From NCBI RefSeq assembly GCF_014306095.1, contig NZ_JACRWC010000074.1:1-39428 (forward strand): DNA of 39,428 nt. The letters run 5' to 3'. This stretch comes from Lentihominibacter faecis. GTDB taxonomy: Bacteria > Bacillota > Clostridia > Peptostreptococcales > Anaerovoracaceae. Shown here in pieces: positions 23,358 to 39,388 of the stretch; the stretch's first letter is position 1, and each line of letters begins with the position of its first letter. The notes beneath the pieces are model-generated. The model was not told the DNA's origin. It did not search any database and worked only from the letters and a program-made list of their open reading frames with translations. The position numbers and the translations under genes were made by a program.

Positions 23358-23386
23358 TTGACAGGAAGAAAAAAGAGAGATATTCT
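23358..23386 (+). promoter_or_regulatory. Sigma-A promoter P1 of the biosynthetic operon
   Basis: TTGACA (23358-23363), 17 bases, TATTCT (23381-23386), predicting a start near 23393, upstream of both operators. A second -10 (TATAAT, 23441-23446) lies inside operator 2 but has only a weak -35, so either or both may be used. Confidence 0.65.
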
Positions 23387-23402
23387 TTAATAGTTCTTTT
23401 GA

Positions 23403-23451
23403 GTTAGCGACAGCTAACTATATTTTTTCTGTCAAGTTAGTATAATCTAAC
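23403..23451 (+). promoter_or_regulatory. Two operators GTTAG-N6-CTAAC, the second enclosing a TATAAT
   Basis: Operator 1 is GTTAGCGACAGCTAAC (23403-23418) and operator 2 is GTTAGTATAATCTAAC (23436-23451). Both arms are identical with a six-base spacer, and the centres are 33 bases apart, close to three helical turns. In operator 2 the spacer is exactly a -10 hexamer. This looks like a dimeric repressor pair controlling the genes from 23480. No regulator gene is adjacent, so the protein must be encoded elsewhere; its family cannot be named from this. Confidence 0.75.
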
Positions 23452-23479
23452 CTAAGGCGGAGAGAAGGGAGAAAGCGGA

Positions 23480-24247
23480 ATGTTTGATTTGAAAGGAAGG
23501 ACGGTTGTCATTACGGGAGCATCTTCCGGACTGGGAAAGGCAGCTGTGTATGCATATGCAAAGGCTGGGGCTGCGGTATTGATCACAGCAAGAAGGTTTG
23601 AGCGTCTAGAGGCAATCAGGGAAGAACTGGCAGCACAGGATTACAGAGTCGAAGCAGTGGCATGTGATGTTCGTGAGGAAGAGCAGGTGCGTGAGACGGT
23701 AAAGCATGCTTTACGATCATTTGGGAAGATCGATGTCCTCTGCAGCTTTGCAGCCGTAACGGATGACAGGGATGTAGCGGAACTTGAGAGCGGGCAGTGG
23801 AATGATGTGCTGCAGACAAATCTGAGCGGGGTCTATTATTTTTCAAAGCATGTGATCCCTCATATGAAAGAGCGCGGATACGGGAGGATCATCAACATCG
23901 GATCGGTCAACGGGCTGGTGGGATCCAAGATGAAACCACGCCATGGATACAATGCTTCGAAAGGAGGTCTTCATGGACTGACGATCGGCATGGCGGCTAC
24001 ATACATGAAGTATGGGATCACAGTCAATGCCATCGCACCGGGGCTGTTTCGCACGGAAATGACAGAAGCGGTATTTGAAGATCCCGTATCACTGGCAACC
24101 TATAATCGTTTAGTGCCGGCGGGAAGAGCAGGTACTGAGGAGGAACTTAACGGAGCACTGCTGTTTCTGTCTTCGGAAGAGGCCGGCTATGTGACGGGAC
24201 AGATCCTCGCCGTTGATGGAGGATATACGATTTCACAGCTGATCTGA
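23480..24247 (+). CDS. Short-chain dehydrogenase/reductase, FabG-like
   Basis: A 255-residue classical SDR, first gene of the biosynthetic operon. NAD(P) binding is seen in TGASSGLG (12-19), and the catalytic Ser142, Tyr157 and Lys161 are in INIGSVNG and YNASKGG, with Asn114 in LQTNLSG. The usual NNAG stabilising motif is replaced by CSFAAV (88-93), a notable departure. The C-terminus has the conserved GYVTGQILAVDGGYT. In this context it would reduce a beta-keto or keto group on a carrier-bound intermediate. An RBS (GAAGGGAG) lies before ATG 23480. The substrate is not predictable. Confidence 0.9.
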   Translation: MFDLKGRTVVITGASSGLGKAAVYAYAKAGAAVLITARRFERLEAIREELAAQDYRVEAVACDVREEEQVRETVKHALRSFGKIDVLCSFAAVTDDRDVAELESGQWNDVLQTNLSGVYYFSKHVIPHMKERGYGRIINIGSVNGLVGSKMKPRHGYNASKGGLHGLTIGMAATYMKYGITVNAIAPGLFRTEMTEAVFEDPVSLATYNRLVPAGRAGTEEELNGALLFLSSEEAGYVTGQILAVDGGYTISQLI

Positions 24248-24280
24248 TGCAGCGTTACTGTAGAGAAGAAAGGAGAAACC

Positions 24281-24517
24281 ATGGAACAGAAAATCATAGA
24301 AATTTTAAAGGAGCATATCGAAGGCTTGGAAAATGCAGAGGTATGCGAGGATACACAGCTGATCGCAAAAGGCCTGCTGGAATCCTTTGATGTGATCAAC
24401 CTTTTACTTGTTTTGGAAGAAGCTTTTGACGTGGAACTGGTACCGGATCTTTTGCAGCTGGAGGATTTTAATTCCCCGAAAACGATTGCTGCGATGATTG
24501 AGCGGTGCAGAGGGTAG
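24281..24517 (+). CDS. Acyl carrier protein 1 (DltC-like)
   Basis: A 78-residue four-helix carrier protein. The phosphopantetheine site is Ser35 in GLLESFDVINLL, where the usual DSL reads ESF, closer to the DltC/aminoacyl-carrier type than to fatty-acid ACP. The acidic helix II and length are normal. It begins 33 bases after the SDR with AGGAG before ATG 24281. Together with the aaRS-like ligase at 28029 it is a candidate acceptor of an activated amino acid, though any of the three carriers in the operon could serve. Confidence 0.88.
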   Translation: MEQKIIEILKEHIEGLENAEVCEDTQLIAKGLLESFDVINLLLVLEEAFDVELVPDLLQLEDFNSPKTIAAMIERCRG

Positions 24518-24521
24518 AAGT

Positions 24522-25046
24522 ATGGAATTTCAGAGAGCGAAGGAAGCGGACTTTGAGGGGAAATGGATTCCTCAGCCTGCTCAGGAAAAGGACCTTGCAG
24601 AACTTGCCGCTATGATCTTTGATTCTGAGCTGGGGCGGAAGTATTATCCGACGGAGAAAACGCTGCTGGAAAAAATGCAGGCGGCCTGTCAGAATTCAGA
24701 CAGGATCATGGTGGTGCGGGAAAAGGAAAAAATCTGCGGCATGTTATGGTTTCAGATGAAGGGGGCGTTTGGCATGTACCCGTACCTGCATCTTATTTTT
24801 ATCCCGGACTCTATGAAGGGAAACGGCGTGGGACGGGAGCTGATGCGCTATCTTGAGTACTATGCTCTCAATGGTGAAGGCCAGAAAATCAAAAGCAGGA
24901 TATTTTTGACGGCAGGCAGCTGGAATGAGGGGACAATCGAATTTTATGACAGACTGGGTTACACCACGATCGGAGTGATTCCGTCTCTGTTCCGGAAAAA
25001 TGTGGAGGAGCGCCTGCTGATGAAGGTGTGCAACAGGGTATTGTAG
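24522..25046 (+). CDS. GNAT-family N-acetyltransferase
   Basis: A 174-residue acyltransferase. The acetyl-CoA loop is visible in PDSMKGNGVGRELMRYLE (the R/Q-x-x-G-x-G/A pattern as K-G-N-G-V-G) after the strand YLHLIFI, followed by FYDRLGYTTIG near the end. I place the start at ATG 24522, four bases after the ACP stop, since the longer frame begins at a TTG inside the ACP gene. In the cluster it could N-acylate the amino group of a carrier-bound amino acid or confer self-resistance by acetylating the product; both are inferences. Confidence 0.87.
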   Translation: MEFQRAKEADFEGKWIPQPAQEKDLAELAAMIFDSELGRKYYPTEKTLLEKMQAACQNSDRIMVVREKEKICGMLWFQMKGAFGMYPYLHLIFIPDSMKGNGVGRELMRYLEYYALNGEGQKIKSRIFLTAGSWNEGTIEFYDRLGYTTIGVIPSLFRKNVEERLLMKVCNRVL

Positions 25047-25067
25047 AAACGATGAAAGGAAAAAAGA

Positions 25068-25784
25068 ATGATCGATGTAAAGAATCTTAATAAGACTTAC
25101 GGTGAGAAGGAGGCTGCGGCACAGGTGCTGAAACATGTTTCCTTCTCTCTGGAAAAGGGCTGCTTCTGCTCCATTGTCGGACCTTCCGGGTCGGGCAAAT
25201 CCACCTTGCTGAATATACTGGGAGGCCTTGAGACAGCTGACAGCGGTATGATCACAGTGGATGGTGCTCCGGTCTGCGGATTAAGCAGCAGGCAGGAACT
25301 TAAATATCGGAGAGAGTATCTGGGCTTTATTTTTCAGTTTTATAATCTGATTCCGAACCTGACCGCGTATGAGAACATCAAGGTCTGTGAGGATCTCAGC
25401 AGTGATTCCCTTGACCTGGAGGAACTGATGAAACAGCTGGGAATCTGGGAGCATAGAAATAAATTTCCATCTCAGCTTTCCGGTGGACAGCAGCAGAGAT
25501 GCGCCATCGCAAGGGCACTGGTGAAAAATCCGAAGATCCTGCTTTGCGATGAGCCTACCGGGGCACTGGATTCCACAAATACGAAGGACATCATGTGCAT
25601 CCTGAAGGAAATCAATGAGAAATACAGCACCACGATTCTGATCGTGACACATAACGACCTGATCTGTGAGACTTCTGACAGGATCCTGCGTCTGGTGGAT
25701 GGAGAAATCGTGCAGGATCAGAGGAATGACCATCCGAAAAAGCCGGAGGACATCGACTGGACCGGCAGTGAGGGGGTCAGATAA
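25068..25784 (+). CDS. ABC transporter ATP-binding protein (LolD/MacB type)
   Basis: A 238-residue ATPase. It has Walker A GPSGSGKST (38-46), the Q-loop region FIFQFYNLIPNLTAYENI, signature LSGGQ (137-141), Walker B ILLCDEPTGALD and the H-loop His195 in VTHND. This profile matches ATPases that partner FtsX-like permeases. The permease gene begins directly at its stop codon (TAAGTG). It probably powers export of, or resistance to, the cluster product. Confidence 0.95.
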   Translation: MIDVKNLNKTYGEKEAAAQVLKHVSFSLEKGCFCSIVGPSGSGKSTLLNILGGLETADSGMITVDGAPVCGLSSRQELKYRREYLGFIFQFYNLIPNLTAYENIKVCEDLSSDSLDLEELMKQLGIWEHRNKFPSQLSGGQQQRCAIARALVKNPKILLCDEPTGALDSTNTKDIMCILKEINEKYSTTILIVTHNDLICETSDRILRLVDGEIVQDQRNDHPKKPEDIDWTGSEGVR

Positions 25785-28016
25785 GTGTATTACAGAAAAA
25801 TGTTTCGCGATTTAGGCGCGAATAAAGTTCGATATGGAATCATATTTCTCGTGCTGGCCATCGGGCTGATGATGGTCGTGGGAAATGTGATGGCTTCCTG
25901 CAATATTTCCGACCAGATGGACAGGTATTTTGACGATTGCAAGGTGGAATCAGGGGAGTTTGTAACGCTGATGAAGCTGAGCGATGATGAAGTGAATGAG
26001 CTTGAAGATAAGGGAACGCAGGTTCAGGAGCAGTTCTACCTGGATTGTGACCGGGAAGACACTACACTGCGTGTATTTCAGAACCGGGAGGCGATCAATA
26101 AGCTGAAGCTGATTTCAGGGCATGAGGCGGCTTCGGACTCGGAACTGGTGGTGGAAAAAAGCTATGCTGAGGCCCATGATCTGAAGCTGGGCGACAAACT
26201 GGAGCTGCACGGAACCAGTTATGAGATCTGCGGGATCGGCACCGTGCCGGACTACGTTTCCATCAAGAAAAATATAACAGATCTTAATTCGGACAGCAAA
26301 AGCTTCGGATTATGCTTTGCAGCAGATGCGGCATACGATGCGATCCGCGATGATCTGAGCGGAGATGAGGCAGAACACCTGCAGTATGCATACCGGATCA
26401 CCGGTGATGTCATCGATGATGAGATACGGGATTTCGTAAAAAACGATACGGGCACGAAGCTCCTGTCTTTTGTAACGAAAGAAGACAACGGGCGCATTAC
26501 CGCCTACCAGGCTGATAATGAAACGATATTATCCGTATCCATTATGATGGGTGGAATGCTGGCGGTATTATTTGCGTTTATCCTGGCGGTGTTTGCTGTT
26601 CACACTATCAACCGAGACAGGGTGGCCATCGGTACGCTGTATGCCTTAGGTGTAGGTCGTGCAAAGGTGATGCAGCAGTATCTGCTGCTTCCGGGTCTGG
26701 TGCTGACGGCAGGAGGTGCCGCGGGGCTTGCGCTGGGGCGTATTCTGTGTGGAGCATCTATTGCCAACAGCGGAGCATCGTATTCCTATCCGGAAATACA
26801 GCATGATTTTTACCCGGTATCGATTCTGTACGGACTGGTGCTCCCGGTTGTTCTGGGAGTCCTGATCAACTTCCTGGTGCTTCACGGGAAGCTGCGAAAA
26901 AAGCCGCTGGATCTGATTCGCGGGAAAAAGCGGAGCCTCCGCACGCCGAAGCTGAAACTGAAAAAAAAGAAATTCATTTCGATTTATCGGATCCGGCAGC
27001 TGATGCGGGAAAAAGCTATTTATATTTTAACGTTCCTGGGCGTGTTTTATGTGATCTGCATCATGATGTTCGCCTTTACGATTTACGCGGCTATGAACAA
27101 TTATGTAGAAAACTCCACCGGGCATGTTAAATGGAACTATATGTATGTCGTCAACGATCTGCAGGATCCTCAGGGGAACGCGGAAACAGGAGTCTACGAG
27201 AAAGCACAGGCTTCTAATGTGTACTCCGGAAAGGATACGGACGTGACGATCCTGGGAATACAGGAGGGCAGCCGCTATTTCGATTTTGATGTGGATTGCG
27301 AAGAAGATGAAATACTGATATCTGACTGTGCGGCACGCAAGTTCGCGTGGAAGACGGGAGATAAAATCACCCTCGATAATAAAGAGGATGGCGAGAAGCA
27401 TTCCTTTACCGTGAAAAATATCGTTCCTTACGATGCGGGACTGTTTGTATTCCTGCCGGTGAATGAAATGAGGGCAGTATACGATCTGGAAAGCGATTAT
27501 GACAATGTCGTTTTTTCAGAGCAGGAACAGGAGTCCGATGATCTGGGGACGATCCTGACAACGATACGTAAAAGTGATATTGAAGAATCCGGACATGCAT
27601 TGATGGATTCCATGATGCTGACGGTGATCGTCATGTTGTGTGCAGCGGTGATCGTTTTCGTGGCGGTCTTGTATCTGCTGCTGAAGCAGGCTATGGAAAA
27701 ATCCTCCTTCGGGATCTCCATCATGCAGATCTTCGGATACGGGCAGAAGGAAATCAACAGGATCTTTATCCATATCAATACGGTCCTGACAGCAGCAGCC
27801 TTCCTGTGTGCCGTCTTTTTAGGAAAGCCGGTGATCGATCAGATGTACCCGAATCTGGTGACCGATATCGATCTGGGATTCGATACCGGATTCAGCGGAG
27901 GCATCTACGGACTGCTGGCATTGATCACAGCGGCGGCATATGGAATTTCGATGCTTCTTCTGAAGCGGAGACTGAATCGGATGGACTATACCGAGGTTCT
28001 GAAAAACAGAGAATAG
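25785..28016 (+). CDS. FtsX-like ABC permease
   Basis: A 743-residue membrane protein with about eight helices (near 17-37, 250-275, 298-320, 345-367, 411-436, 610-633, 665-681, 705-726). Two large extracytoplasmic domains lie between them (about 40-245 and 440-605), giving two FtsX modules in one chain. The start is GTG 25785, immediately after the ATPase stop. It forms a MacB/BceB-style unit with the preceding ATPase. Such units export or remove lipophilic peptides and antibiotics, which fits a self-protection or secretion role for the product. Confidence 0.92.
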   Translation: MYYRKMFRDLGANKVRYGIIFLVLAIGLMMVVGNVMASCNISDQMDRYFDDCKVESGEFVTLMKLSDDEVNELEDKGTQVQEQFYLDCDREDTTLRVFQNREAINKLKLISGHEAASDSELVVEKSYAEAHDLKLGDKLELHGTSYEICGIGTVPDYVSIKKNITDLNSDSKSFGLCFAADAAYDAIRDDLSGDEAEHLQYAYRITGDVIDDEIRDFVKNDTGTKLLSFVTKEDNGRITAYQADNETILSVSIMMGGMLAVLFAFILAVFAVHTINRDRVAIGTLYALGVGRAKVMQQYLLLPGLVLTAGGAAGLALGRILCGASIANSGASYSYPEIQHDFYPVSILYGLVLPVVLGVLINFLVLHGKLRKKPLDLIRGKKRSLRTPKLKLKKKKFISIYRIRQLMREKAIYILTFLGVFYVICIMMFAFTIYAAMNNYVENSTGHVKWNYMYVVNDLQDPQGNAETGVYEKAQASNVYSGKDTDVTILGIQEGSRYFDFDVDCEEDEILISDCAARKFAWKTGDKITLDNKEDGEKHSFTVKNIVPYDAGLFVFLPVNEMRAVYDLESDYDNVVFSEQEQESDDLGTILTTIRKSDIEESGHALMDSMMLTVIVMLCAAVIVFVAVLYLLLKQAMEKSSFGISIMQIFGYGQKEINRIFIHINTVLTAAAFLCAVFLGKPVIDQMYPNLVTDIDLGFDTGFSGGIYGLLALITAAAYGISMLLLKRRLNRMDYTEVLKNRE

Positions 28017-28028
28017 AAAGGAGTATGT

Positions 28029-29210
28029 ATGTGGTATAAAACAGAGAAGATCCCGGCAGGCGATATAAACTTTTTTCTGGATATGATCCCGTATATCTCA
28101 AGGCATATTGAAGAGATCAGGCGGGGAGAAGATGGTGTGGAGATCCTTTGCAGCGAGGCTCATCAGGAAGAAGTGCTGGCAAGCCTTACGCGGCTTGAAA
28201 ACATGATCGGTGAAGGGAAATTCGCCAAGAAAGATGTAAAACCGACGATACTGGAGGATTTCACGGACGTTCCGATGCAGAATACAGAAAACATTTTTGA
28301 GGAACTGCTTGCACGGGGAATCATAAGGAAAATCACGGAAGGAGTATACGCGTACAGCGATATCTTCCTGAAGGTCTTCCGGTATTTCGACCGGAAGATC
28401 GAAGAGAACGGGTTCAAACAGTTTCCCGGTATCAGGGAGTATGAATTCCCGGTGTTGTATCCGCTGGATTCCTATCAGACCGGAGGCTATTTTGAATCGT
28501 TTCCGCATCATATCATGTTTCAGTCGGTGATGAAAAACGACCTTGAAGTCATCGACAGATTTGCGCAGAAAGGCGTGGAGAAAGAGACGCTGGGAACCGA
28601 TATGAAGACTCCTGTCAATGTGCTTCGTCATGCGGCCTGCGTTCCGGTCTATGAGTTTCTGAAAAACCAGATCATTTCACCGGATACGCCGGAGATCTAT
28701 CTGGTTTCCGGAAAATGCTTCCGCAATGAAGCGGGTAATGTAAAAGAGCTTGCACGGCTCAATGAGTTTTTCATGAAGGAGTACGTGTTTGTGGGAACGG
28801 CGGAGCAGTGTGAGGAAAGCGTGAAAAAAGCAAAGCGTCTGTGGCTGGAGTGGATCCGGGTATTTGGATTGAACTGCAGGATCTCTACGGCGACTGATTC
28901 CTTTTTCGCCAGCAATTACAAGAAGCTGAAGCTTTTTCAGATCCTGGGGAATTCCAAGCAGGAATTTCAGGTCTGCCTTCCGGGGAGCGATATGTTTTCG
29001 TCATGCGGCTCTGTGAATTTCCACAGAACGCATTTCACCAAACCGTATAATATCCGCAGCTCGGAGGACTCCTATTGCTACAGTGCCTGCTGTGCGTTCG
29101 GCATCGATCGGCTCAGCTATGCGCTGCTGTCCCAGAAAGGGCTGGATCCTGACAGATGGGATCAGGAGACCTATGATGAAATTTTCGGTATCACTAGAGA
29201 GAAACGATAG
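28029..29210 (+). CDS. Class II aaRS-like amino acid:[carrier protein] ligase
   Basis: A 393-residue protein related to the catalytic core of class II aminoacyl-tRNA synthetases (SerRS-like) but with no tRNA-binding domain. Motif 2 is visible as GKCFRNEAGN (Phe231, Arg232, Glu234) followed by LARLNEFFMKEYVFVG, and motif 3 as AFGIDRLSYALL (Gly358, Arg361). Known homologues activate a small amino acid with ATP and load it on a carrier protein's phosphopantetheine. It starts at ATG 28029 after AAAGGAG, 12 bases past the permease. Three carriers are encoded in the operon. Which amino acid it uses is not visible. It is the clearest sign that an aminoacyl-thioester enters this pathway. Confidence 0.85.
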   Translation: MWYKTEKIPAGDINFFLDMIPYISRHIEEIRRGEDGVEILCSEAHQEEVLASLTRLENMIGEGKFAKKDVKPTILEDFTDVPMQNTENIFEELLARGIIRKITEGVYAYSDIFLKVFRYFDRKIEENGFKQFPGIREYEFPVLYPLDSYQTGGYFESFPHHIMFQSVMKNDLEVIDRFAQKGVEKETLGTDMKTPVNVLRHAACVPVYEFLKNQIISPDTPEIYLVSGKCFRNEAGNVKELARLNEFFMKEYVFVGTAEQCEESVKKAKRLWLEWIRVFGLNCRISTATDSFFASNYKKLKLFQILGNSKQEFQVCLPGSDMFSSCGSVNFHRTHFTKPYNIRSSEDSYCYSACCAFGIDRLSYALLSQKGLDPDRWDQETYDEIFGITREKR

Positions 29211-29228
29211 AATATGAGGAGAACAACT

Positions 29229-30263
29229 ATGAAAAAAGCACTTGTTACAGGCGTGGGCAGATACCTGCCGGAGCGAAAAATCACAACAGAAGAAATGGAA
29301 GAAATGGCTGGATATGATAAATTCGGTGTGCGCTACGGATTATGCAAAATGCTGACCGGCTGTGAAACAAGATACTATGCGGCAGAGGATGAATACAGCT
29401 CGGATCTGTCGATGAAAGCAAGCCTTAAAGCAATGGAGCAGGCCGGTGTGCAGCCGTCGGATATCGATGCGGTGTTATTCTGCTCGATCACACAGGATTT
29501 TGCAGAGCCGGCGACAGCCAATGTGGTGGCAGATAAGCTGGACATACGGAACGCCTATGTGTTTGATGTGAAAAACGCCTGCAATGCCTTCATGAGCGGT
29601 GTGGATCTTGCAGACAGCCTTATCAAAACAGGAAAGGCGGAGACGATCCTGGTGACCTCGGGCGAAGCTCTGTCCAAGTGGATCCGCAGAGGCTTTGATT
29701 CCAAAGAAGAGCTGATGGAAAAAGCTCCGGTGACATTGTCCATGGGAGATGCAGGAGGCGCTTATATCCTGCAGGCAGGGGAAAATACGGAGCGAGGCGT
29801 CAACAAGACATATTTCCACACATTTACGGACATGTGGAACAACAACGTTGTCTGGGGCGGAGGTACCATGTTCCCACGGGATCCGGACAAGATGTTCATT
29901 CCGGGGACGACCAAGGAGATCGTGGACAAGCAGAAGGAAGTGTTTGCAGGACTGATTCCTAACTTTGAGAAAATTTTTGAAAGCAGAATAAGCGATATCG
30001 ACTGTTTCATACCGACGCAGGTGGCAAAGTGGCTCATCACAAACGGTGCAAAAAACTATTCTGCCGTGACAGGGATCGATGTAGATGTATTCCTGAAAAA
30101 GACGGTAAGTATCATTGACCGATACGGCAATATGGGAGCCAGCAATATTCCTGTGGCAACCAGTGTAGCCATGGAAGAGGGACTGATCAAAGAGAACACG
30201 CAGACGCTGTGCATGAGCGTAGGTGTCGGGATCAGCGAGGCTATGATGACGGTAACGTTCTAG
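29229..30263 (+). CDS. KASIII-like 3-oxoacyl-ACP synthase with altered triad
   Basis: A 344-residue thiolase-fold enzyme. The nucleophile Cys118 lies in DVKNACNAFMSG and the Asn in DRYGNMGASNIPVA (Asn301). The motif that normally carries the His (PHQAN) reads PTQVAKW, so His is replaced by Thr263. GGA/GDAGGAYIL and the C-terminal VGVGISEAMMTVTF are family-like. Loss of His suggests acyl transfer (C-O, C-N or C-S bond) or an unusual condensation rather than decarboxylative Claisen chemistry. The start is ATG 29229 with GAGGAG upstream; the ATG at 29214 overlaps that RBS. It sits 18 bases after the aaRS-like gene. Confidence 0.87.
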   Translation: MKKALVTGVGRYLPERKITTEEMEEMAGYDKFGVRYGLCKMLTGCETRYYAAEDEYSSDLSMKASLKAMEQAGVQPSDIDAVLFCSITQDFAEPATANVVADKLDIRNAYVFDVKNACNAFMSGVDLADSLIKTGKAETILVTSGEALSKWIRRGFDSKEELMEKAPVTLSMGDAGGAYILQAGENTERGVNKTYFHTFTDMWNNNVVWGGGTMFPRDPDKMFIPGTTKEIVDKQKEVFAGLIPNFEKIFESRISDIDCFIPTQVAKWLITNGAKNYSAVTGIDVDVFLKKTVSIIDRYGNMGASNIPVATSVAMEEGLIKENTQTLCMSVGVGISEAMMTVTF

Positions 30264-30264
30264 T

Positions 30265-31869
30265 ATGGAAGACAGGTTAAATATGATGAAAAATGGATTT
30301 CAGCAGCTCTATGAGTTTCTGTTTTTGGAGGATGAACGGATTCTGTTCGAGGTGATGCAAAAGGATGGGCAGACATCGGTTGACTGTCGCGGCTTCTGCG
30401 AGCTGGTCAGCGGTCTTGCTTTTTCTCTGAGGCAGGAACAGGCAGAAATGACTGCAGGTAAATCCCGCACACGATTTCTGGCAGTACAGATAAAAAATTC
30501 TCCGATCCTGTATGCCTCCGTATTTGCGGCACTTCAGGCAGGATTTGATGTGCTGCTGGTGGATCCGAAGCTGGGAGAGGAACCCAGGAAACAGCTTCTG
30601 CAGGAAGCAAACGCTAAAATTCTGTTAACCGACAGACCGGGAGCAGACGCTGACTGGAAATGTCTTTCTGCTGCAGAACTGCAGCAGAAAGCTTTGCAGG
30701 AACAGAAGAAGGTGAAAAACGCCGATAAGGAAGCACCTGCAAAGTGGGGACGATATCTGGCATTTGCCACGTCAGGAACGACGGGACCCGGCAGGATCAT
30801 TGCATATGAAGGGGCGGCTGTCTGCAGACAGGTGATGCGCACCGTGCAGTGGTTCCGGGAAACACCATTTATGACAGAGCTTCTGTCGGGAAAAGATCCG
30901 CAGGGAGAACGGGTGATGAGCATTCTGCCGATGCATCATATCTTTGGCTGTCTCTGCCCTTTGATTTTAATGGGCTATGGTTTTCGGATCCTCTTTCCTA
31001 AGAATGATGCCATCACTACGATTTTGGGTACCATGGCATCGGCGCAGGTGTGGGGCTGTATGAGTGTGCCTATGTTCTGGCAGACTGTTCTCAATCTCCT
31101 GCGGAGCAGATACGGAGAGGTTTCTGCGGATTCCATCGGACAGCTTGCCGGGGAAAATCTGAAGTTCTGTCTTACGGGAGGAACGTATGCCGATCCGGGG
31201 CTTAGAAGGAGTTTTCTGGAAGCAGGAATCGGGTTTTCTCTGGGCTTCGGGATGACGGAGACGGGATGCTGCACGATGCATTTTATGAGCGTGGAAAACA
31301 TGGATTCGGAAGGGTATGTTTATCCGTGGTATGAAGCGGAGATCTGCACGGAGGATGGACAGCAGCTGAAAAACGGAACCGGAGAGCTTCTGCTGAAAAG
31401 TGATGCGTTGTTCAGCGGATATATCCAGGGCGGAGATCTGATCCCGTGGGAGCCGGAAGGAGATGGATATTACCGGACGGGAGATATTTTCTGCAAAGAA
31501 GAGAGCCGGCTTACGTTTGTAGGTCGTTGTAAAAACCTGATCGTCAATGCATCGGGAGAAAACATTTATATCGAGGAGCTGGAACAGAGTTTTGAAGCTC
31601 TGGCAGGCTTCGGGCTCCTGTATGGCATAATCGAATGCAACAGTGAACCGGTACTTGTTGTGCAGCTGCGAGGCGGGGAAAACCGGGAGCAGCTTCTGCG
31701 ATGCATTACAGAAATCGTGGGGACACTGCCGGTCTATCAGCGCCCTCAGAGGGCTGTCCTGACGAAATCCGTGCTTCCGGTTACGGCAAAGGGCGAAATC
31801 AGAAGGCGGCAGATTACGGATGAAATGCTGGATGATCCCGGAAATACAGTACAGATTTATAAAAGATAG
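30265..31869 (+). CDS. AMP-forming acyl/aryl ligase 1 (stand-alone adenylation enzyme)
   Basis: A 534-residue member of the ANL superfamily that activates a carboxylic acid as its acyl-AMP. Motifs: A3 ATSGTTGPGR (168-177), A5 GFGMTETG (328-334), A7 YRTGD (403-407), A8-like VGRCKNLIVNASGENIY and the A10 Lys509 in TAKGEIRR. It begins two bases after the KASIII stop, with an alternative start at ATG 30283. The carrier protein starting at 31879 directly follows and is its likely acceptor. The acid is unknown; the sequence is not close to DhbE, unlike ligase 2. Confidence 0.9.
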   Translation: MEDRLNMMKNGFQQLYEFLFLEDERILFEVMQKDGQTSVDCRGFCELVSGLAFSLRQEQAEMTAGKSRTRFLAVQIKNSPILYASVFAALQAGFDVLLVDPKLGEEPRKQLLQEANAKILLTDRPGADADWKCLSAAELQQKALQEQKKVKNADKEAPAKWGRYLAFATSGTTGPGRIIAYEGAAVCRQVMRTVQWFRETPFMTELLSGKDPQGERVMSILPMHHIFGCLCPLILMGYGFRILFPKNDAITTILGTMASAQVWGCMSVPMFWQTVLNLLRSRYGEVSADSIGQLAGENLKFCLTGGTYADPGLRRSFLEAGIGFSLGFGMTETGCCTMHFMSVENMDSEGYVYPWYEAEICTEDGQQLKNGTGELLLKSDALFSGYIQGGDLIPWEPEGDGYYRTGDIFCKEESRLTFVGRCKNLIVNASGENIYIEELEQSFEALAGFGLLYGIIECNSEPVLVVQLRGGENREQLLRCITEIVGTLPVYQRPQRAVLTKSVLPVTAKGEIRRRQITDEMLDDPGNTVQIYKR

Positions 31870-31878
31870 GAGACATGT

Positions 31879-32136
31879 ATGAAAAAAGCAGGAAAAGAAG
31901 AAATAAAAACCTTTATTAAGGAACGGCTGGCGGAACTTTTAAATATAGATCCGCAGAGCATTGATGAAAATGCATTTCTGGTAGAGGATCTGGGAACGAC
32001 CAGCATTATGATCGTGGATCTTCTGGTTGCTGTTGAAGAAGAGTACGGAGTCGATATGCAGAGCAGATTCGATCTGGTCGAACCCGTATCGGTGAATCTT
32101 GTAACAGACCGGATCCTGGAAAACATGGAGGCATGA
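31879..32136 (+). CDS. Acyl carrier protein 2
   Basis: An 85-residue carrier protein. The modified residue is Ser42 in DLGTTSIMIVDLL; the aspartate that usually precedes the serine is Thr here. The remainder follows ACP layout, with a Lys-rich N-terminus and acidic helices. RBS TAGGAG precedes ATG 31879. It sits ten bases after AMP-ligase 1 and one base before the thioesterase gene, so it probably receives the acid activated by ligase 1. Confidence 0.88.
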   Translation: MKKAGKEEIKTFIKERLAELLNIDPQSIDENAFLVEDLGTTSIMIVDLLVAVEEEYGVDMQSRFDLVEPVSVNLVTDRILENMEA

Positions 32137-32137
32137 T

Positions 32138-32761
32138 ATGGAGATTTTATTCTGTATCCCGGGAGGCGGCACTTCATCACTGATGTATATGGGATGGCAG
32201 AAGCTGCTGAAGGATGAATTTACGATCATCCCGCTGGAGATCCCGGGTCGGGGACGGCTCAGGGAGATGGAGCGGGCATCTTCTCTGGAGGAAATCGCAG
32301 AGGGAATGGCAAGGCAGGTCTGTGAGCAGGCAAATGGCAGATCGTATGGCATTTTCGGATATTGCTATGGCGGGATCCTGGCATACGAGATCTGCAGGAT
32401 TCTGGCGGAGGAAGGAAAATGTCTGCCGGAGGATCTTTATCTTTGTGGAACATCAGCTCCTTTTGAGGAGATTTCTGTCACACCGCTGCTGAGCAGAAAG
32501 GAGCATCGTCAGGATCTGAAGGATATGCTGAGTCGTTTTTTTCCGGCGTATCTTACTGCGAATACGGTGGTAATGGAGCAGCTCTGCGAGAAATATATGG
32601 AAGCTCTTTTTCAGAAGTACGATGCGGAAAAACAGATATCGGACATTACAGAGGAGGATCTGAATCTGGAGAAACTGGAGGACGGCGAGGAGAAGCTGCT
32701 GGACTATATAGTATCGTTTGCCAATGATTTCTTTCGCAGCTACAGCGAGGATGAGGCTTGA
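32138..32761 (+). pseudogene. Type II thioesterase with Cys nucleophile, N-terminal part (probably frameshifted)
   Basis: A 207-residue frame with an alpha/beta-hydrolase of the type II (NRPS/PKS editing) family: CIPGGGTSSLMYMGW at the start and the nucleophile elbow GYCYGG with Cys76 in place of Ser. It stops after the lid region (SYSEDEA) without the catalytic Asp and His. These appear in the next frame (ICGGDD, EGNHF), so the enzyme is split by a one-base shift near 32755-32762. The frames share one base (TGATG). I call it broken rather than two genes because neither half is complete. Sequencing error is a real alternative; if so, the cluster has a working Cys thioesterase. Confidence 0.7.
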
Positions 32762-33213
32762 TGCTCCGTTACTGTAAAGCGTGCAGCAGCCCCTATTGCC
32801 TGGATAGCCGTATCACGGTGATCTGTGGGGGCGATGACCACATAGCAGGACAGAACGGGAACTGCTGGAAACGATGCTGCAGGAAGGAATTTATTCAGCA
32901 TACCATTGAAGGAAATCACTTTACTCTGATCGAGGATATGGAGAAAATCACATCGATCCTGCGGAGAAAAAACAGGTCGGATGTTGCGGAACAGCTGCGT
33001 GAAATCTGGCGAAAGGTATTGAATGCCGATGATTCTCTCGATATTGAAGCGGAAACGAATTTTTTTGAAGCAGGTGGAGACTCCCTGCTGTTAGGACTTC
33101 TGAACATCATGATCGAAAAGCAGATCGGTCGCAAGCTGAGAATCGAGACGTTTTTTGAACATCAGACGTTTGGCGGGATGGTTCGTGCAATTCAGGCGGA
33201 GCCTGCTGTCTGA
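32761..33213 (+). pseudogene. Thioesterase C-terminal part fused to a peptidyl carrier domain
   Basis: A 150-residue frame. Residues about 15-60 resemble the C-terminus of a type II thioesterase, with the likely catalytic Asp in ICGGDDH and His in EGNHFTLIED. Residues about 74-145 are an NRPS-type carrier with NFFEAGGDSLL (Ser108). Between them, the stretch NGNCWKRCCRKEF reads better one frame over: bases 32847-32903 encode RTERELLETMLQEGIYSAY, which fits a thioesterase helix. That implies a lost base near 32840-32850 and an extra one near 32900-32906. The intact ancestor was probably a thioesterase-carrier fusion of about 355 residues. The carrier itself looks intact. Confidence 0.65.
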
Positions 33214-33231
33214 TGCCGGAAAGGAGGAACT

Positions 33232-34833
33232 TTGAATCAGGAATTATATGAAAAGTTTTGTCATGAATATGAAAAGAAAGGTCTCTGGGAGCATAGCACT
33301 CACGGATCGAAACTAAAAAACTGTGCGGAGAAATACGGGGAGCGGATCGCGCTGATCGATGAACAGGAGGAAATCTCTTACCAGGAGCTGGATCTTCGAT
33401 CAGATCAGATGGCTGCCTGGATGCTGCATGAGGGGTTCGTGAAGGGAGAACGGATCGTGATTCAGCACGTGAACTGCATCGGATTTGCCGTGATGTGCTT
33501 TGCGATGTTTAAGATCGGGGTGATACCGGTGCTTGCAATGCCGTCTCACGGTATGCGTGAGCTTTCCGGTATTGTAAAGACAGCGCAGCCGAAGGGATTC
33601 ATTGTGATTGAAACGTATCACGGAGTGGATCATCTGGCAGAGGCGGCGGTTTTGCAGAAGGAGAATCCGTGTATTGAAAAGGTGATTCCGGCTGAGCGTC
33701 TGGAGCAGATGGATTTCTCTCAATGGGAGCTTGATGAGGAGCTTTATGAGAAGCCCTGCAGCCGGGATACTGCGATCCTTGTGCTTTCTGGAGGCTCTAC
33801 AGGAATCCCGAAGCTGATTGCCCGTCCGCATGCGGACTATCTGCATCTGCAGAAATACTGCGCTCTTTCCTGCGGGATGGATGAAAACAGCGTGAGTCTG
33901 ATCGCCATGCCTGTGACACACTGCTGGAATCTGTGCGGCCCCGGGCTGTTGGGCTCTTTGTTTGCAGGGGCAAAAACCGTCTTGTGCCGGAATGGAAGTG
34001 CAGATGAGATCCTGAACTGTATCGAAATGCACGAGGTGACGACGATGGCTCTTGTGCCGTCCCTTCTTCGTGCCTGCATAAGTCTGCAGGACCTCATGGA
34101 AAATGACCTCTCTTCTTTACAGATGATCCAGATCGGTGGAGCGATGTGTCCGCCGCAGCTTGCGGAGCTGGCGGTAGAGAAACTGGGATGTAAGGTGCAG
34201 CAGATTTATGGTATGAGCGAGGGATTTGTTTCTGCGACAAGACCGGAAGATCCATATGAGATCATGATCGGCACGCAGGGAATTCCGGTTTCGCCGGGCG
34301 ATATCATGAAAATCGTAGATGAAGAGGAGCAGGAGGTTCCGGCAGGAGAGGCAGGAGAAATACTGGCTCGAGGTCCATCTGTTGTCTGGGAGTACTATGA
34401 AAATCCTGTTATGAGCAGTGTAGCGTTTACGGAGGATGGATTTTACCGGACCGGTGATAAGGGCCGGATCGATCCGGATACAGGACGGCTTCAGATCCTG
34501 GGCAGGATCCGTGAGCAGATCAATCGTCTGGGCGAAAAGATCATGCCATCCGAGCTGGAAGAGTATCTGCTGGATCATCCGCAGATCCAGCAGGTATGTG
34601 TTGTTCCGGCGGATGATGAGAAGCTGGGACAGAGAATTTGCATCTGTCTTCCGGAAGCTCTTTCCGGGATCGGGCTGACGCAGCTGCGTCAGTTTTTAAA
34701 GGAAAAGGAGATCGCTTCTTTTAAGATGCCGGATCAGGTGATTTATATCAGGGAGTGGCCGTATACAGCGGTCAATAAGATTGATCGCGGCAGGCTGCGT
34801 GAAATGGCGGAAGGAAAGGTGGCGCTGTGTTAG
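33232..34833 (+). CDS. AMP-forming ligase 2, DhbE/EntE-like aryl-acid adenylation enzyme
   Basis: A 533-residue stand-alone adenylation enzyme that aligns well with DhbE (2,3-dihydroxybenzoate-AMP ligase) along its length. Motifs: A3 LSGGSTGIPK (185-194), A5 YGMSEG (326-331), A7 YRTGD (405-409), A8 GRIREQINRLGEK and the A10 Lys516 in TAVNKIDRG. The DhbE pocket stretch HNYPLSSP reads HCWNLCGP here (230-237). The residues that contact the DHB hydroxyls (Asn235 and Ser240 in DhbE) are Cys231 and Gly236, so the acid is probably not DHB. The start is TTG 33232 after AGGAGG. The carrier domain just upstream is its natural acceptor. Confidence 0.92.
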   Translation: MNQELYEKFCHEYEKKGLWEHSTHGSKLKNCAEKYGERIALIDEQEEISYQELDLRSDQMAAWMLHEGFVKGERIVIQHVNCIGFAVMCFAMFKIGVIPVLAMPSHGMRELSGIVKTAQPKGFIVIETYHGVDHLAEAAVLQKENPCIEKVIPAERLEQMDFSQWELDEELYEKPCSRDTAILVLSGGSTGIPKLIARPHADYLHLQKYCALSCGMDENSVSLIAMPVTHCWNLCGPGLLGSLFAGAKTVLCRNGSADEILNCIEMHEVTTMALVPSLLRACISLQDLMENDLSSLQMIQIGGAMCPPQLAELAVEKLGCKVQQIYGMSEGFVSATRPEDPYEIMIGTQGIPVSPGDIMKIVDEEEQEVPAGEAGEILARGPSVVWEYYENPVMSSVAFTEDGFYRTGDKGRIDPDTGRLQILGRIREQINRLGEKIMPSELEEYLLDHPQIQQVCVVPADDEKLGQRICICLPEALSGIGLTQLRQFLKEKEIASFKMPDQVIYIREWPYTAVNKIDRGRLREMAEGKVALC

Positions 34834-36215
34834 GACTTACAACCGTTCACTGGATTTATCTGCTGTTTTCGATTCTGATTTTTGTCGCACTGGTGAGGAA
34901 ACGTGAAATCGTACTGGTGGGTATTGCCGGGATACTGGCGGTTGTTCTGGTGTATACCGGCAGCCCGGTAACAGCGTTTCAGGCCTTATGTTCGTCCATC
35001 GTGGCCGGATTCAGTGAAGTTCTGTATATTTTTATCGGGATCGCTTTGATTCTTACGATGACGCTGGCGATGAAAGAGTGTGGAGTGGATCAGGCGCTTT
35101 CCCGGCCACTGGATCGGATCAGAACCGGGCCGGGGAGAACTTTTCTGATTTCAGGCGTTATCATGTTCGTTGTTTCACTCCTGATCTGGCCGTCTCCGGC
35201 GGTAGCACTGATGGGTGCATTTTTTATTCCGCTGGCGCAGAAGGCCGGGCTTCCGGCGATATACATGGCGGTGGCTTTGAATCTGTTTGGCCACGGGGCG
35301 GCTCTTTCCGGAGATTTTTTCATTCAGGGGGTTCCGGCTGTGGCAGCGGAAAGTGCCGGGTATACCAGCAGCGATCTGATGCCGTACCTTGTTCCGCTGT
35401 GGATCACGATGACGGTGATCACCATCGGCATGAGTTTTCTTCTGATGAAGCTGGATGTACGTCATATGAAAAAGGAAGATACTGTCTCTGGAAAGAATTC
35501 GCACGAGTGCAGGATGATTTCAAGCGATGAGACCGGAAAGAAAAGAAGAATCTTCTTTCTTGTGATGGGACTGTTACTGATGTTTGATATTGTCGTTGTA
35601 GTGACGTGTGATGTGAGCGGGGATGATGCTTTGACGCTGATTACCGGAACGGTTCTGGTGATTTCAGGGATTTTGTGTCTGCTGTTTTTCGGTATGTCCC
35701 AGGCGGCATCAAAGTTTATCGGATTTATGACAAAGGGTTTCGGCTCGGCAATGGAGATGTTTGCTCCAGCCGTTATCATCATCGCGTTTTTCTCCATCGG
35801 AAATCAGGAGACCGCACAGCAGATCTTGGGAGAGGATGTCAGCGGGATTTTAAGTGATCTGGTTCATGCGCTGGTCAGTGGACTGCATGTGCCGGAGCTT
35901 TGCCTGCCGGTGGTACAGTCTATGGCGGGGATCCTTTACAGTATGGATGGATCCGGATTCGCAGGGTTGACAGTGATTGGAGAAATCGCACAGAGCTACC
36001 ATGTTTCAGGAGAATGTGCCAAGATCCTGACTTCGCTGGGGCAGATCGTGATTATCTGGGTAGGAGGCGGGACTGTGATCCCTTGGGCTGTGATCCCGGT
36101 CTCTGCAATATGCGGAGTGTCACCGCGCGAACTTGCAAAGAAAAATCTCATCCCGGTAGCCTGCGGGCTTGTCGGCACGATCGTGTGTGCTGTGATTCTC
36201 ATGGCAGCTGTATAA
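34827..36215 (+). CDS. Multi-pass ion/organic-acid permease (GntP/CitMHS-like)
   Basis: A 462-residue protein with about 12 hydrophobic helices and paired half-repeats, as in anion:cation symporters of the GntP/CitMHS/DcuC type. A charged cytoplasmic loop lies near residues 215-245 and the sequence ends with SPRELAKKNLIPVACGLVG. The GTG start at 34827 overlaps the end of AMP-ligase 2 by seven bases, so it is translationally coupled to the biosynthetic genes. It may import a precursor acid or export a product. The family is an eye-level guess. Its stop lies only two bases from the end of the convergent zupT, with no terminator between. Confidence 0.75.
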   Translation: MLGLTTVHWIYLLFSILIFVALVRKREIVLVGIAGILAVVLVYTGSPVTAFQALCSSIVAGFSEVLYIFIGIALILTMTLAMKECGVDQALSRPLDRIRTGPGRTFLISGVIMFVVSLLIWPSPAVALMGAFFIPLAQKAGLPAIYMAVALNLFGHGAALSGDFFIQGVPAVAAESAGYTSSDLMPYLVPLWITMTVITIGMSFLLMKLDVRHMKKEDTVSGKNSHECRMISSDETGKKRRIFFLVMGLLLMFDIVVVVTCDVSGDDALTLITGTVLVISGILCLLFFGMSQAASKFIGFMTKGFGSAMEMFAPAVIIIAFFSIGNQETAQQILGEDVSGILSDLVHALVSGLHVPELCLPVVQSMAGILYSMDGSGFAGLTVIGEIAQSYHVSGECAKILTSLGQIVIIWVGGGTVIPWAVIPVSAICGVSPRELAKKNLIPVACGLVGTIVCAVILMAAV

Positions 36216-36217
36216 GG

Positions 36218-37018
36218 TTACAGCATCAGAAGACTGACAGCCATGACAGCCATGCCCAGCACCAGGCCATAGATGGAAAATTTGTGATTGCCGTATTCTC
36301 TGGCGGAAGGAAGCAGCTCGTCGAAGGACATGAAAATCATGACCCCGGCGACCCCGGCGTATAAAAATCCGAAGACCAGATCGCTCATAAACGGTACTAA
36401 AATCAGCCACCCGGCGAGGGCGCCTGCAGGCTCTGCAAGTCCGGATAAAAAGGAGTATTTTATAGCCTTCATGCGGGATCCGGTCGCGTGATAGATGGGT
36501 GAGGATATGGAAATCCCCGCAGGGATGTTGTGGATGATGATGGCAACAACGACAGGGATTGCGATTTTCATTCCCTGCAGTGCGGATACAAAGGTGGTCA
36601 GGCCTTCCGGAAAATTGTGGATAGCCAGAGCAATAGCGGTGAGCTGACCGATCCGCATCAGTTTGGAAGGATCGTGTATGGATTGTCCGTGGGAGCTTCC
36701 ATGAAATCCGCAACCATGATCATGACCATGGGGAGCGATGACCGCTTCTAAAAACCACATTAAAAGGATGCCGCCGAAAAAGGCTGCCAGCGTGAAGATA
36801 CCGCCCCTCAGTTCTCCTGAGGCATTGTCCAGATATTCTCGAGCTTCCGGCAGGATCTCCATCATGGATAGATAGATCATGACTCCTGCGGAAAATCCCA
36901 GGCTGACGGATAGGAATTTTTGATTTGTAAGCTTCGTCAGTACCGTAATACCGCTGCCGATCAGCATGCTGAGGCCGGCCAGTACTGTAAGCAGAAATGC
37001 CAGTGTATAATCGTTCAT
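36218..37018 (-). CDS. zupT: ZIP-family zinc transporter
   Basis: A 266-residue membrane protein with eight helices that imports zinc or other divalent metals. Conserved metal-site helices carry IHNFPEGL and IIHNIPAGISISSPIYHATG, and a His-rich cytoplasmic loop (HGHDHGCGFHGSSHGQSIH) lies between helices 3 and 4. The start at 37018 has only a weak RBS. A good sigma-A promoter lies at 37088-37060. It is transcribed towards the biosynthetic operon and looks unrelated to it. Confidence 0.93.
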   Translation of the reverse strand: MNDYTLAFLLTVLAGLSMLIGSGITVLTKLTNQKFLSVSLGFSAGVMIYLSMMEILPEAREYLDNASGELRGGIFTLAAFFGGILLMWFLEAVIAPHGHDHGCGFHGSSHGQSIHDPSKLMRIGQLTAIALAIHNFPEGLTTFVSALQGMKIAIPVVVAIIIHNIPAGISISSPIYHATGSRMKAIKYSFLSGLAEPAGALAGWLILVPFMSDLVFGFLYAGVAGVMIFMSFDELLPSAREYGNHKFSIYGLVLGMAVMAVSLLML

Positions 37019-38026: not shown

Positions 38027-38100
38027 GCGGATGTAGTTTAGTGGCAAAACCTCAGCTTCCCAAGCTGAAGTTGTGGGTTCGATTCCCATCATCCGCTCCA
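38027..38100 (+). tRNA. tRNA-Gly (anticodon CCC), likely integration site
   Basis: Acceptor GCGGAUG pairs with CAUCCGC, the anticodon stem UCAGC/GCUGA encloses loop UUCCCAA, and the T arm has GGUUCGAUUCC. Anticodon CCC is at 38059-38061 and reads GGG. CCA is encoded. The integrase gene ends 50 bases downstream, so the tRNA 3' end is the probable attachment site. Confidence 0.95.
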
Positions 38101-38149: not shown

Positions 38150-39370
38150 TTAAAAGGCGTGGTTTTGCTGTTTTTTACCGTGTTTTGCTACCTGTTCAGG
38201 CACGGAATCAGGCACGGTATGGCGTTGATTTATCAGGCTTCGAGCTGTTTCCAACGTCTCAAAACAGGCATGAGTATAGATTTTGGACGTTAGAGCAATG
38301 TCTGAGTGTCCCATGAGTCTACATGCGATGTTGATGGGAACCCCGGCTTTCTCTAAATCTGTGCAGTATGTATGACGGAGATTATACATGACGAAATCTT
38401 CTGCTAGCGGAAAAGGCGGGATCAGCTCGTCTTGTTCTACGCGGCATCCCATACCAATATTCATAAGCCGTCGGATATCGTCCCACATGGAACGTCTGCG
38501 TCCAATCGTAGGAGACTTGCCGTCGATCAGCGTGGCTGATTCAAATGGATCACGTTTGCAGCTGCATAGTTCATTCAGAAAAATTTCAGGAATTGGAATC
38601 TGCCGGAAGCCTGCATCGGACTTTGGGTATTTAGAGCGTCCCTTTTTATCCCATGCTCTGGAGACCGTAAGAATTCCTGTTTTAAAGTCGATATCTTTCC
38701 AAATCAATGCTGCGGATTCGCTAGGGCGCAGACCGCAGTACAGGCAAAATTTGCAGAACAGGTTTCCTCGGTGAGGCTTTGGATCTGAGACAAATGTATT
38801 CGTTTTATAAAAATCCTCGGTGATTTTTCCGGACAGTACCTGCAGCAGGACTTCACGCTCCCTGTCGGTGATACTCCGGCGGGGATTGCTCTTTTTCCCT
38901 TTCGGGCGGACTAGATCTTCGGAGAAATTTCGATCCAGACTACCATTCTTGTAGGCAGAGTCGAACAGTTCTTTCGTTGCACGAAAAATTTTATTTACAT
39001 ATTCCTGAGAGTAATGGGAACAGTCGTTTAGGAACTGCTGTACATGAAGCGGCTGGATGTTCCCCAGCGAACGGTTTCCGATACCTGGAACTACCTTCCG
39101 CAAGACGATATAAGAAAGGTTATCAAACCAGTCATCACCGACTGTCTCGGACTTATAGGTTTCAAGCCATTGCTCTGCGAAATCCTGCAGCCGTGTCTTG
39201 CGGTCGATGATACCGCGATCGATCTCATTGTGTTTCGCCTGCAGTTTCTGCATGAATTCCGACAGAGTGTGGGCACGAACGTCGATGGGAACGCCGTGAT
39301 AGATCTCCTGCTGGCGGAACTTGAAGCGGGAAGAGGTGTTGGCTGTGTTCTGTTTCTTCTTGGTTGCCAT
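38150..39370 (-). CDS. int: Tyrosine recombinase (integrase)
   Basis: A 406-residue phage/ICE-type integrase. It has an N-terminal arm-type region, a core-binding SAM-like domain (about 60-150) and a catalytic domain (about 165-375). The Arg in CGLRPSE (215), Arg332 in YNLRHTY, His355 in LMGHSDIA and Tyr365 in SKIYTH are seen; the first His of the HxxR box is Tyr, a common variant. A Lys near 250 (PKSDAG) is the probable beta-hairpin Lys. The start is ATG 39370 with AAGGAG nine bases upstream; the ATG at 39379 touches that RBS. The gene points at the 3' end of tRNA-Gly, so the element lies to the right, outside the window. Confidence 0.95.
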   Translation of the reverse strand: MATKKKQNTANTSSRFKFRQQEIYHGVPIDVRAHTLSEFMQKLQAKHNEIDRGIIDRKTRLQDFAEQWLETYKSETVGDDWFDNLSYIVLRKVVPGIGNRSLGNIQPLHVQQFLNDCSHYSQEYVNKIFRATKELFDSAYKNGSLDRNFSEDLVRPKGKKSNPRRSITDREREVLLQVLSGKITEDFYKTNTFVSDPKPHRGNLFCKFCLYCGLRPSESAALIWKDIDFKTGILTVSRAWDKKGRSKYPKSDAGFRQIPIPEIFLNELCSCKRDPFESATLIDGKSPTIGRRRSMWDDIRRLMNIGMGCRVEQDELIPPFPLAEDFVMYNLRHTYCTDLEKAGVPINIACRLMGHSDIALTSKIYTHACFETLETARSLINQRHTVPDSVPEQVAKHGKKQQNHAF

Positions 39371-39388
39371 ATGTATCATCTCCTTAAA

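Follow-up and report, generated by a model that had tools for sequence, protein, structure and literature searches.

The stretch analysed here, 39,428 nucleotides of contig NZ_JACRWC010000074.1 from Lentihominibacter faecis and referred to below as the window, carries at positions 23480-36215 a run of 13 open reading frames (ORFs), all on the + strand, which correspond to 12 genes once a split thioesterase-carrier pair is merged. On balance, this run is probably an iron-responsive operon for a small, exported acyl/aminoacyl product that is assembled on free-standing carrier proteins (CP1 to CP3) and most likely binds metal, as a metallophore does. Directly supported are the composition of the operon, the repeated occurrence of its genes with the same partners, the key catalytic residues and an operator that is common to the feoB promoters of relatives. 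Metal binding is proposed because of this regulation and of the importers found in the relatives. An earlier note on this DNA had described 13 frames with gaps of 0-35 bases; the number of frames stood, but the spacing ranges from overlaps of 4 and 7 bases up to a gap of +33. The spacing between CP1 and the N-acyltransferase (GNAT) gene depends on the start of the latter, being a 20-base overlap from TTG and +4 from the ATG at 24522.

When 84,980 species, each represented by one genome, were scanned with a profile, 26 loci were found with a relative of the aminoacyl-tRNA synthetase (aaRS)-like gene of the operon. They were mostly from Lachnospiraceae and Oscillospiraceae/Ruminococcus, with others in Slackia, Gordonibacter and Peptoniphilus. 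Same-strand hidden Markov model maps placed the aaRS-like gene in 26 of these loci, CP1 in 25, the ketoacyl synthase III (KASIII)-like gene in 24, a WbuX-type amidotransferase in 21, GNAT in 11, a formyltransferase in 10, an energy-coupling factor (ECF) S-component in 10, and a nonribosomal peptide synthetase (NRPS) of condensation-adenylation-peptidyl carrier protein type in 7. The divergent AMP-ligase LIG1 was the best family in 18 loci (two more were weak) and the DhbE type in 17, one of these on the opposite strand; these counts follow best-family assignment, and the raw counts (LIG1 23, DhbE 24) were discarded since the two profiles cross-match. The earlier note had named separation of the aaRS-like, KASIII and ligase genes in other genomes as a finding that would speak against it, and the three were found together instead. 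As 24 of the 26 aaRS-like loci also hold a same-strand KASIII relative, this is a real family of biosynthetic loci. It is also a sporadic one, the aaRS-like gene being present in 3/397, 1/394, 3/396 and 2/391 sampled genomes, with the centre genome counted each time. In L008 the KASIII end lies at a contig edge, and L019, a short contig, had no core partners at that strictness. The statement that modular NRPS and polyketide synthase proteins are lacking holds for the window operon and fails for the family, since in addition to the seven NRPS loci above, an NRPS-like protein of 1134-1141 amino acids was present in L002, L003 and L026.

The WbuX-type label derives from NCBIfam TIGR03573 matches of two relatives (L014 and L007), both below the cut-off. 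Eleven of the 21 WbuX loci had GNAT only, 7 had the formyltransferase only, none had both and 3 had neither (L009, L011 and L012, where the fetched stretch begins inside the operon). Beside the WbuX-type gene, GNAT and the formyltransferase-like gene thus substitute for each other. In FastTree phylogenies, the aaRS and KASIII trees grouped the loci by the same subtypes and the LIG1, DhbE and CP1 trees agreed in part; the DhbE tree includes LIG1 proteins for some loci, as a result of the profile cross-match. The window formed its own branch, with its KASIII sister to the formyltransferase type (support 0.994), its DhbE-like ligase sister to L007/L013 (1.0) and an aaRS placement of support 0.27 only. 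Near-identical L014-type clusters were present in two Actinomycetota, Slackia exigua (L011) and Gordonibacter sp. (L012), which suggests inter-phylum transfer. The cluster of L016, recorded as an Alistipes senegalensis metagenome-assembled genome, was closely similar to the Ruminococcus clusters of L015 and L017, and is perhaps a mis-binned contig in a Bacteroidota assembly.

The best clue to function, the iron-type operators, had been missed by the earlier note. The single promoter region that it had described is present as a sigma-70-like TTGACA-N17-TATTCT sequence, which is weak evidence alone (one found versus a shuffle mean of 0.7), and two palindromes, GTTAG-N6-CTAAC, are located between this promoter and the first gene. 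The expectation for the exact site in the window was 0.007 (300 Markov simulations), and no site with up to one mismatch was found elsewhere in the window, including the region of the ZIP-family gene that follows the operon.

The same operator was sought in 14 genomes of relatives (approximately 42 Mb). The exact pattern occurred 102 times, versus 23 times for the reversed control pattern, and the half-sites GTTAG and CTAAC recurred while the middle six bases varied across genomes. These genomes gave 30 FeoB_N matches. The 1.5 kb upstream of nine of the 30 FeoB loci contained a total of 18 exact sites, compared with about 0.11 expected from 102 sites per approximately 42 Mb scaled to 45 kb. 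These nine are made up of seven loci with 13 sites among 28 that were checked and two loci with 5 sites that were counted separately; in the 20 FeoB loci with both flanks, the remaining sequence had no exact site. Allowing one mismatch, a site was present in 13 of the 28 checked loci, and in genome G003 three exact sites were located 2.6 kb upstream of FeoB. A DtxR-family (PF02742) gene was present in 13 of the 14 genomes. It was divergent from feoB with the operator between them in L090, and in L091 it follows feoB in the same row, with feoB preceded by three sites; in L089 a site lay 240 bp downstream of a DtxR-type gene. In both L090 and L091, feoB is also preceded by small ORFs, presumably feoA. 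The operator also preceded genes for an ECF S-component (L062), an ATP-binding cassette (ABC) half-transporter (L056) and a protein with a heme-binding-type domain (L060), and in L057 a DUF3793 gene was located between the sites and feoB. A 70-kb contig of Butyrivibrio sp. LB2008 (L005/L051, G004:C15) carries at least two ECF/ABC sets and nine exact sites, and resembles a series of several metal-acquisition loci. Enolase genes have the operator immediately in front of them at L058 (2397-3788, G002) and at L061 (15346-16804, G013), and in G013 it was also seen approximately 340 bp before a peroxiredoxin gene; at L061, DUF6796 is encoded two genes in behind the site.

At the starts of the aaRS operons, as placed by an automated finder, a site with up to one mismatch was present in 11 of 19 usable loci and an exact site in 4 of 19, compared with 3.2% and 1.25% of random 480-bp stretches. 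The finder misplaced some starts; the automated count was kept as choice by eye is biased. With longer flanks, exact sites were seen immediately ahead of the first gene in L014 and L005, which are among the 11, and in L006, which is not.

The aaRS-like protein is, from its sequence, a relative of the amino acid:[carrier protein] ligases, and loading onto a carrier instead of a tRNA is predicted. Its residues 104-386 align to Bll0957 (PDB 4h2w) and contain the class II aaRS catalytic core, while residues 1-103 fall outside the aligned stretch; a match to archaeal-type seryl-tRNA synthetase was also obtained. The best NCBIfam match was amino acid--[ACP] ligase PRK07080 (1.5e-43), at 149 bits versus an equivalog cut-off of 357, which was not reached. 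C204, E251 and C354 were invariant in 28 aligned sequences and align with the zinc ligands Cys131, Glu176 and Cys279 of Bll0957. Ligases of this kind are represented by Bll0957 of Bradyrhizobium (PDB 4h2w/3mey; Mocibob 2010, as cited in PMC9437257). The window protein has in common with them the class II core, the same Cys/Glu/Cys positions and a carrier gene nearby (25/26 loci), and differs in its sub-equivalog score, its unaligned residues 1-103 and the location of its gene in a full biosynthetic operon. To our knowledge, the amino acid:[carrier protein] ligases have been found in bacteria without a known product. Through this operon family, their relatives can be linked to a pathway, to partner carriers and to a regulatory cue that is open to testing in cultured strains, for example Lachnospira pectinoschiza or Butyrivibrio sp. 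LB2008.

The catalytic triad of KASIII/FabH enzymes is Cys-His-Asn. In the KASIII-like protein of the window the Cys and Asn are kept and the His is replaced by Thr, and its FabH scores were below the curated NCBIfam cut-offs. Among 20 aligned relatives, the His was replaced by Thr or Ser in 17 and kept in three (L010, L020 and L021). Lacking this His, the enzyme probably acts as an acyltransferase or condenser and not as a normal decarboxylating FabH. KASIII-like acyltransferases such as CerJ and PqsBC are known, and the window enzyme has the fold family and the Cys and Asn in common with these and with FabH. A scan of viral contigs with the KASIII-like protein gave no match. At the position of the A10 Lys, LIG1 carries Glu, with a Lys two residues before it, and this early Lys was present in 15 of 16 aligned relatives (the exception being L025). 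The DhbE-like ligase has whole-length homology and the A3 and A10 Lys motifs in common with DhbE, EntE and BasE, and at 427 bits it did not reach the TIGR02275 cut-off of 723.55 (NCBIfam). According to passages of PMC10296737 and PMC12005286, Asn235 and Ser240 of DhbE bond the hydroxyls of 2,3-dihydroxybenzoate, and Cys240 is associated with salicylate. The window ligase has neither residue, with Cys at the Asn235 position and Gly at the Ser240 position; among ten aligned DhbE-type relatives, L007 and L013 have Ala and Gly at these positions, and the other eight keep the Asn. As predicted from the sequence, this pocket argues against 2,3-dihydroxybenzoate as the substrate, and the earlier suggestion that the enzyme loads an aryl acid is doubtful.

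All three carrier domains that had been proposed were found as PP-binding domains. CP1 was below the Pfam cut-off (17.6 versus 20.8 bits) and its DltC-like match (2e-9) was also below cut-off (NCBIfam); its Ser is nonetheless present, and the carrier Ser was invariant among seven aligned carriers. The Cys-thioesterase is also present, its nucleophile elbow having the motif GYCYGG, although not as a gene separate from the third carrier. The Pfam Thioesterase profile is split, with positions 2-151 in ORF 32138-32761 and 168-223 in ORF 32758-33213. Among the 13 homologues that the first ORF has in the database, four hold thioesterase and carrier in one protein, and the largest homologue cluster (P0123, 353 sequences) is a continuous 358-amino acid fusion. 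This split and the intact fused homologues indicate that the two ORFs are one gene with a frame slip near 32757-32761, which gives 12 genes and an interrupted copy in the window. Further slips inside the thioesterase were considered and rejected; there, the reading frame of the continuous P0123 and P0125 is that of the second ORF, and one slip was counted. The operons of L014 and L005 had an SDR (short-chain dehydrogenase/reductase) relative at their start or close to it, as did that of L006 once this locus was extended; the SDR count of 2 of 26 fetched loci includes several loci that end before the operon start. The last gene encodes a permease with no Pfam match above cut-off, no NCBIfam family and no PDB relative, and with relatives in L003 and L007 only among the 26 loci; an AlphaFold model from three sequences had a mean pLDDT of 38 and no usable fold.

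The assignment of substrates to carriers is based on family knowledge and gene order, CP1 being next to GNAT, CP2 after LIG1 and CP3 before the DhbE-like gene. In low iron, a DtxR-family repressor would leave the two sites just downstream of the promoter. The aaRS-derived ligase would adenylate an amino acid and load it on CP1, where the adjacent GNAT may acylate its amino group. CP2 would receive a second acid from LIG1, and this acid would then be taken up by the Cys of the KASIII-like enzyme and passed on. The SDR could reduce a keto group. A third acid would be loaded on CP3 by the DhbE-like ligase, the Cys-thioesterase fused to CP3 would release the product, and the MacB/FtsX-type pump would export it. 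In the absence of a condensation domain, the KASIII-like enzyme, GNAT and thioesterase are the candidates for bond formation. A broader proposal is offered tentatively and with considerable doubt, namely that these loci are a new, iron-controlled class of metallophore assembly among anaerobes, with no modular synthetase in the window form and with the amino acid supplied by a synthetase-derived ligase on a carrier of its own. In the relatives, N-acetylation (by GNAT) or N-formylation (by the formyltransferase) might be followed by a WbuX-type conversion of amide to amidine; the window version keeps GNAT and has no WbuX. Purine synthesis proceeds from glycinamide ribonucleotide to its formyl derivative and then to formylglycinamidine ribonucleotide, and a carrier-bound echo of these steps is proposed for the amidine route.

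A number of observations weigh against an iron-responsive metallophore operon. By Pfam, the operon genes include no condensation domain and no modular ketosynthase, no recognised metallophore importer or dedicated uptake system, and neither an aryl-acid biosynthesis gene nor EntCBA-type genes; with no importer, condensation domain or aryl-acid genes in the window, the metallophore is something that we infer. The WbuX-type amidotransferase of most relatives is absent, the DhbE-like pocket is not of the known dihydroxybenzoate or salicylate type, and the thioesterase-carrier gene is interrupted. The operator pattern was first noticed in the window and then sought elsewhere, the host's own genome was outside the sample of 14, and with one mismatch allowed two sites also occurred in 6 of 100 window shuffles. 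Among the 30 FeoB loci, 21 had no exact site and 15 had no site with up to one mismatch, and genomes G005, G010 and G012 had no feoB operator site at all. In L001, an exact site falls within the aaRS gene itself. No site was found at the automated operon start in 8 of the 19 usable loci; by eye, five of these eight have a site further up (exact before the first genes of L002, L006, L010 and L013, and with one mismatch in L018), and L021, L024 and L025 remain without. Sites also precede genes for peroxiredoxin (L061), enolase (L058, L061) and a methyltransferase (L059), and the regulon may therefore extend beyond iron uptake.

The product might instead be an iron-regulated antibiotic, signal or modified lipid that is exported by the MacB/FtsX pump, iron serving as a cue for gut competition. 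We consider this a possible but rather unlikely explanation. In its favour, an exporter is present with no recognised importer in the window, the direction of the permease is not evident, no known chelating moiety is apparent and the DhbE-like pocket is altered; against it, the core genes of the relatives are located with import-type ECF/ABC sets and the operator precedes such genes too. It is improbable that the palindromes, instead of being an iron operator in this host, form a stem in the RNA, of terminator or leader type, or serve a different regulator (responding to manganese, peroxide or heme). Site 1 with its T-rich tail does score as terminator-like (one found, shuffles 0.1), folding of the leader was more stable than that of all 200 shuffles (z -2.9) and the same site is present before AhpC and enolase genes. 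However, the half-sites recur while the middle bases vary, as in protein sites, and the sites are concentrated before feoB and beside DtxR-family genes.

Slightly less probable still is decay of the operon in the window to a non-functional state, as the frame slip and the missing WbuX-type gene might indicate. Against this, the remaining frames are uninterrupted, the key residues that were checked are preserved except for changes common to the family, the thioesterase-carrier gene is intact in its largest database cluster, and a single slip may be an assembly error. A chance neighbourhood of unrelated genes has a negligible probability. The permease and the SDR were each found in only 2 of 26 fetched loci, L006 having gained its SDR on extension, but the aaRS-like, carrier, KASIII and ligase genes occur together in at least 24 of 26, Slackia and Gordonibacter included, and this co-occurrence refutes the idea. 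The iron-responsive metallophore operon is accordingly the reading that we retain.

The features of the operon are listed in Table 1. The class II aaRS-like enzyme, the two AMP-binding enzymes, the SDR and GNAT that the earlier note had recognised were all supported by Pfam, and its two-gene ABC exporter (ATPase and FtsX/MacB-type permease) and separate polytopic permease were also present.

Table 1. Genes and regulatory elements of the Lentihominibacter faecis operon (positions in the window)
Feature	Position	Strand	Evidence
Sigma-70-like promoter TTGACA-N17-TATTCT	23358..23386	+	consensus match only
Operator site 1, GTTAG-N6-CTAAC	23403..23418	.	exact match
Operator site 2, GTTAG-N6-CTAAC	23436..23451	.	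exact match
SDR oxidoreductase, FabG-like	23480..24247	+	PF13561 3.4e-57; YxxxK present
Carrier CP1, DltC/ACP-like	24281..24517	+	PF00550 E 0.0045, below cut-off; Ser35
GNAT N-acyltransferase	24498..25046 (TTG start; ATG 24522)	+	PF00583 1.5e-11
ABC exporter ATPase, LolD/MacB type	25068..25784	+	PF00005 1.3e-36
ABC exporter permease, FtsX domains	25785..28016	+	PF02687 4.7e-13, two stretches; MacB_PCD 5e-9
aaRS-like, relative of amino acid:[carrier protein] ligases	28029..29210	+	PDB 4h2w 2.6e-23
KASIII-like enzyme	29214..30263	+	Cys and Asn kept, His to Thr
Divergent AMP-ligase LIG1	30265..31869	+	PF00501 3.6e-34
Carrier CP2	31879..32136	+	PF00550 1.7e-9
Thioesterase (Cys nucleophile)-carrier CP3, interrupted gene	32138..33213	+	Pfam domain split over two ORFs
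DhbE-like acid-AMP ligase, altered pocket	33232..34833	+	PDB 1md9 5.5e-114
Polytopic membrane permease	34827..36215	+	no family above cut-off

The upstream neighbour of the operon is mutY; among the 120 best MutY matches listed, which include copies at 98-100%, those with a named source were from Acutalibacter (67%), Clostridium minihomine (63%) and Neglectibacter (62%). A ZIP-family metal transporter gene (36218-37018) is convergent with the operon and is located 2 bp past its end. Just beyond, a tRNA-Gly gene (38027-38100, +) lies beside a phage-type integrase gene (38150-39379, -), a layout typical of island attachment.

The component families are known, but the combination and the iron operator were not found in the literature searched; this gene set was not described there, subscription papers, preprints and MIBiG being outside the scope of that search. 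Should the product bind iron, strict gut anaerobes would have a type of metallophore with no counterpart in that literature. Iron-regulated siderophore clusters have a DhbE-type ligase in common with the window operon, and the operator is common to feoB and the ECF/ABC importers in the relatives; the window operon differs from such clusters by having no recognised importer, EntCBA-type genes or NRPS. Compared with the closthioamide pathway (CtaC/CtaE/CtaH), the window has no CtaC-like gene, no Pfam match of CtaC-type thioamide synthetase being present among the operon genes, and for both of the relatives' amidotransferases that were tested, the best match was WbuX, which acts on sugars. The window operon also differs in its aaRS-like ligase, which is not mentioned in the closthioamide passages of PMC6772006. 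By those passages, both systems have in common an anaerobic host, free-standing carriers and thiotemplated assembly, and by this analogy the operon appears akin to non-canonical thiotemplated pathways such as that of closthioamide.

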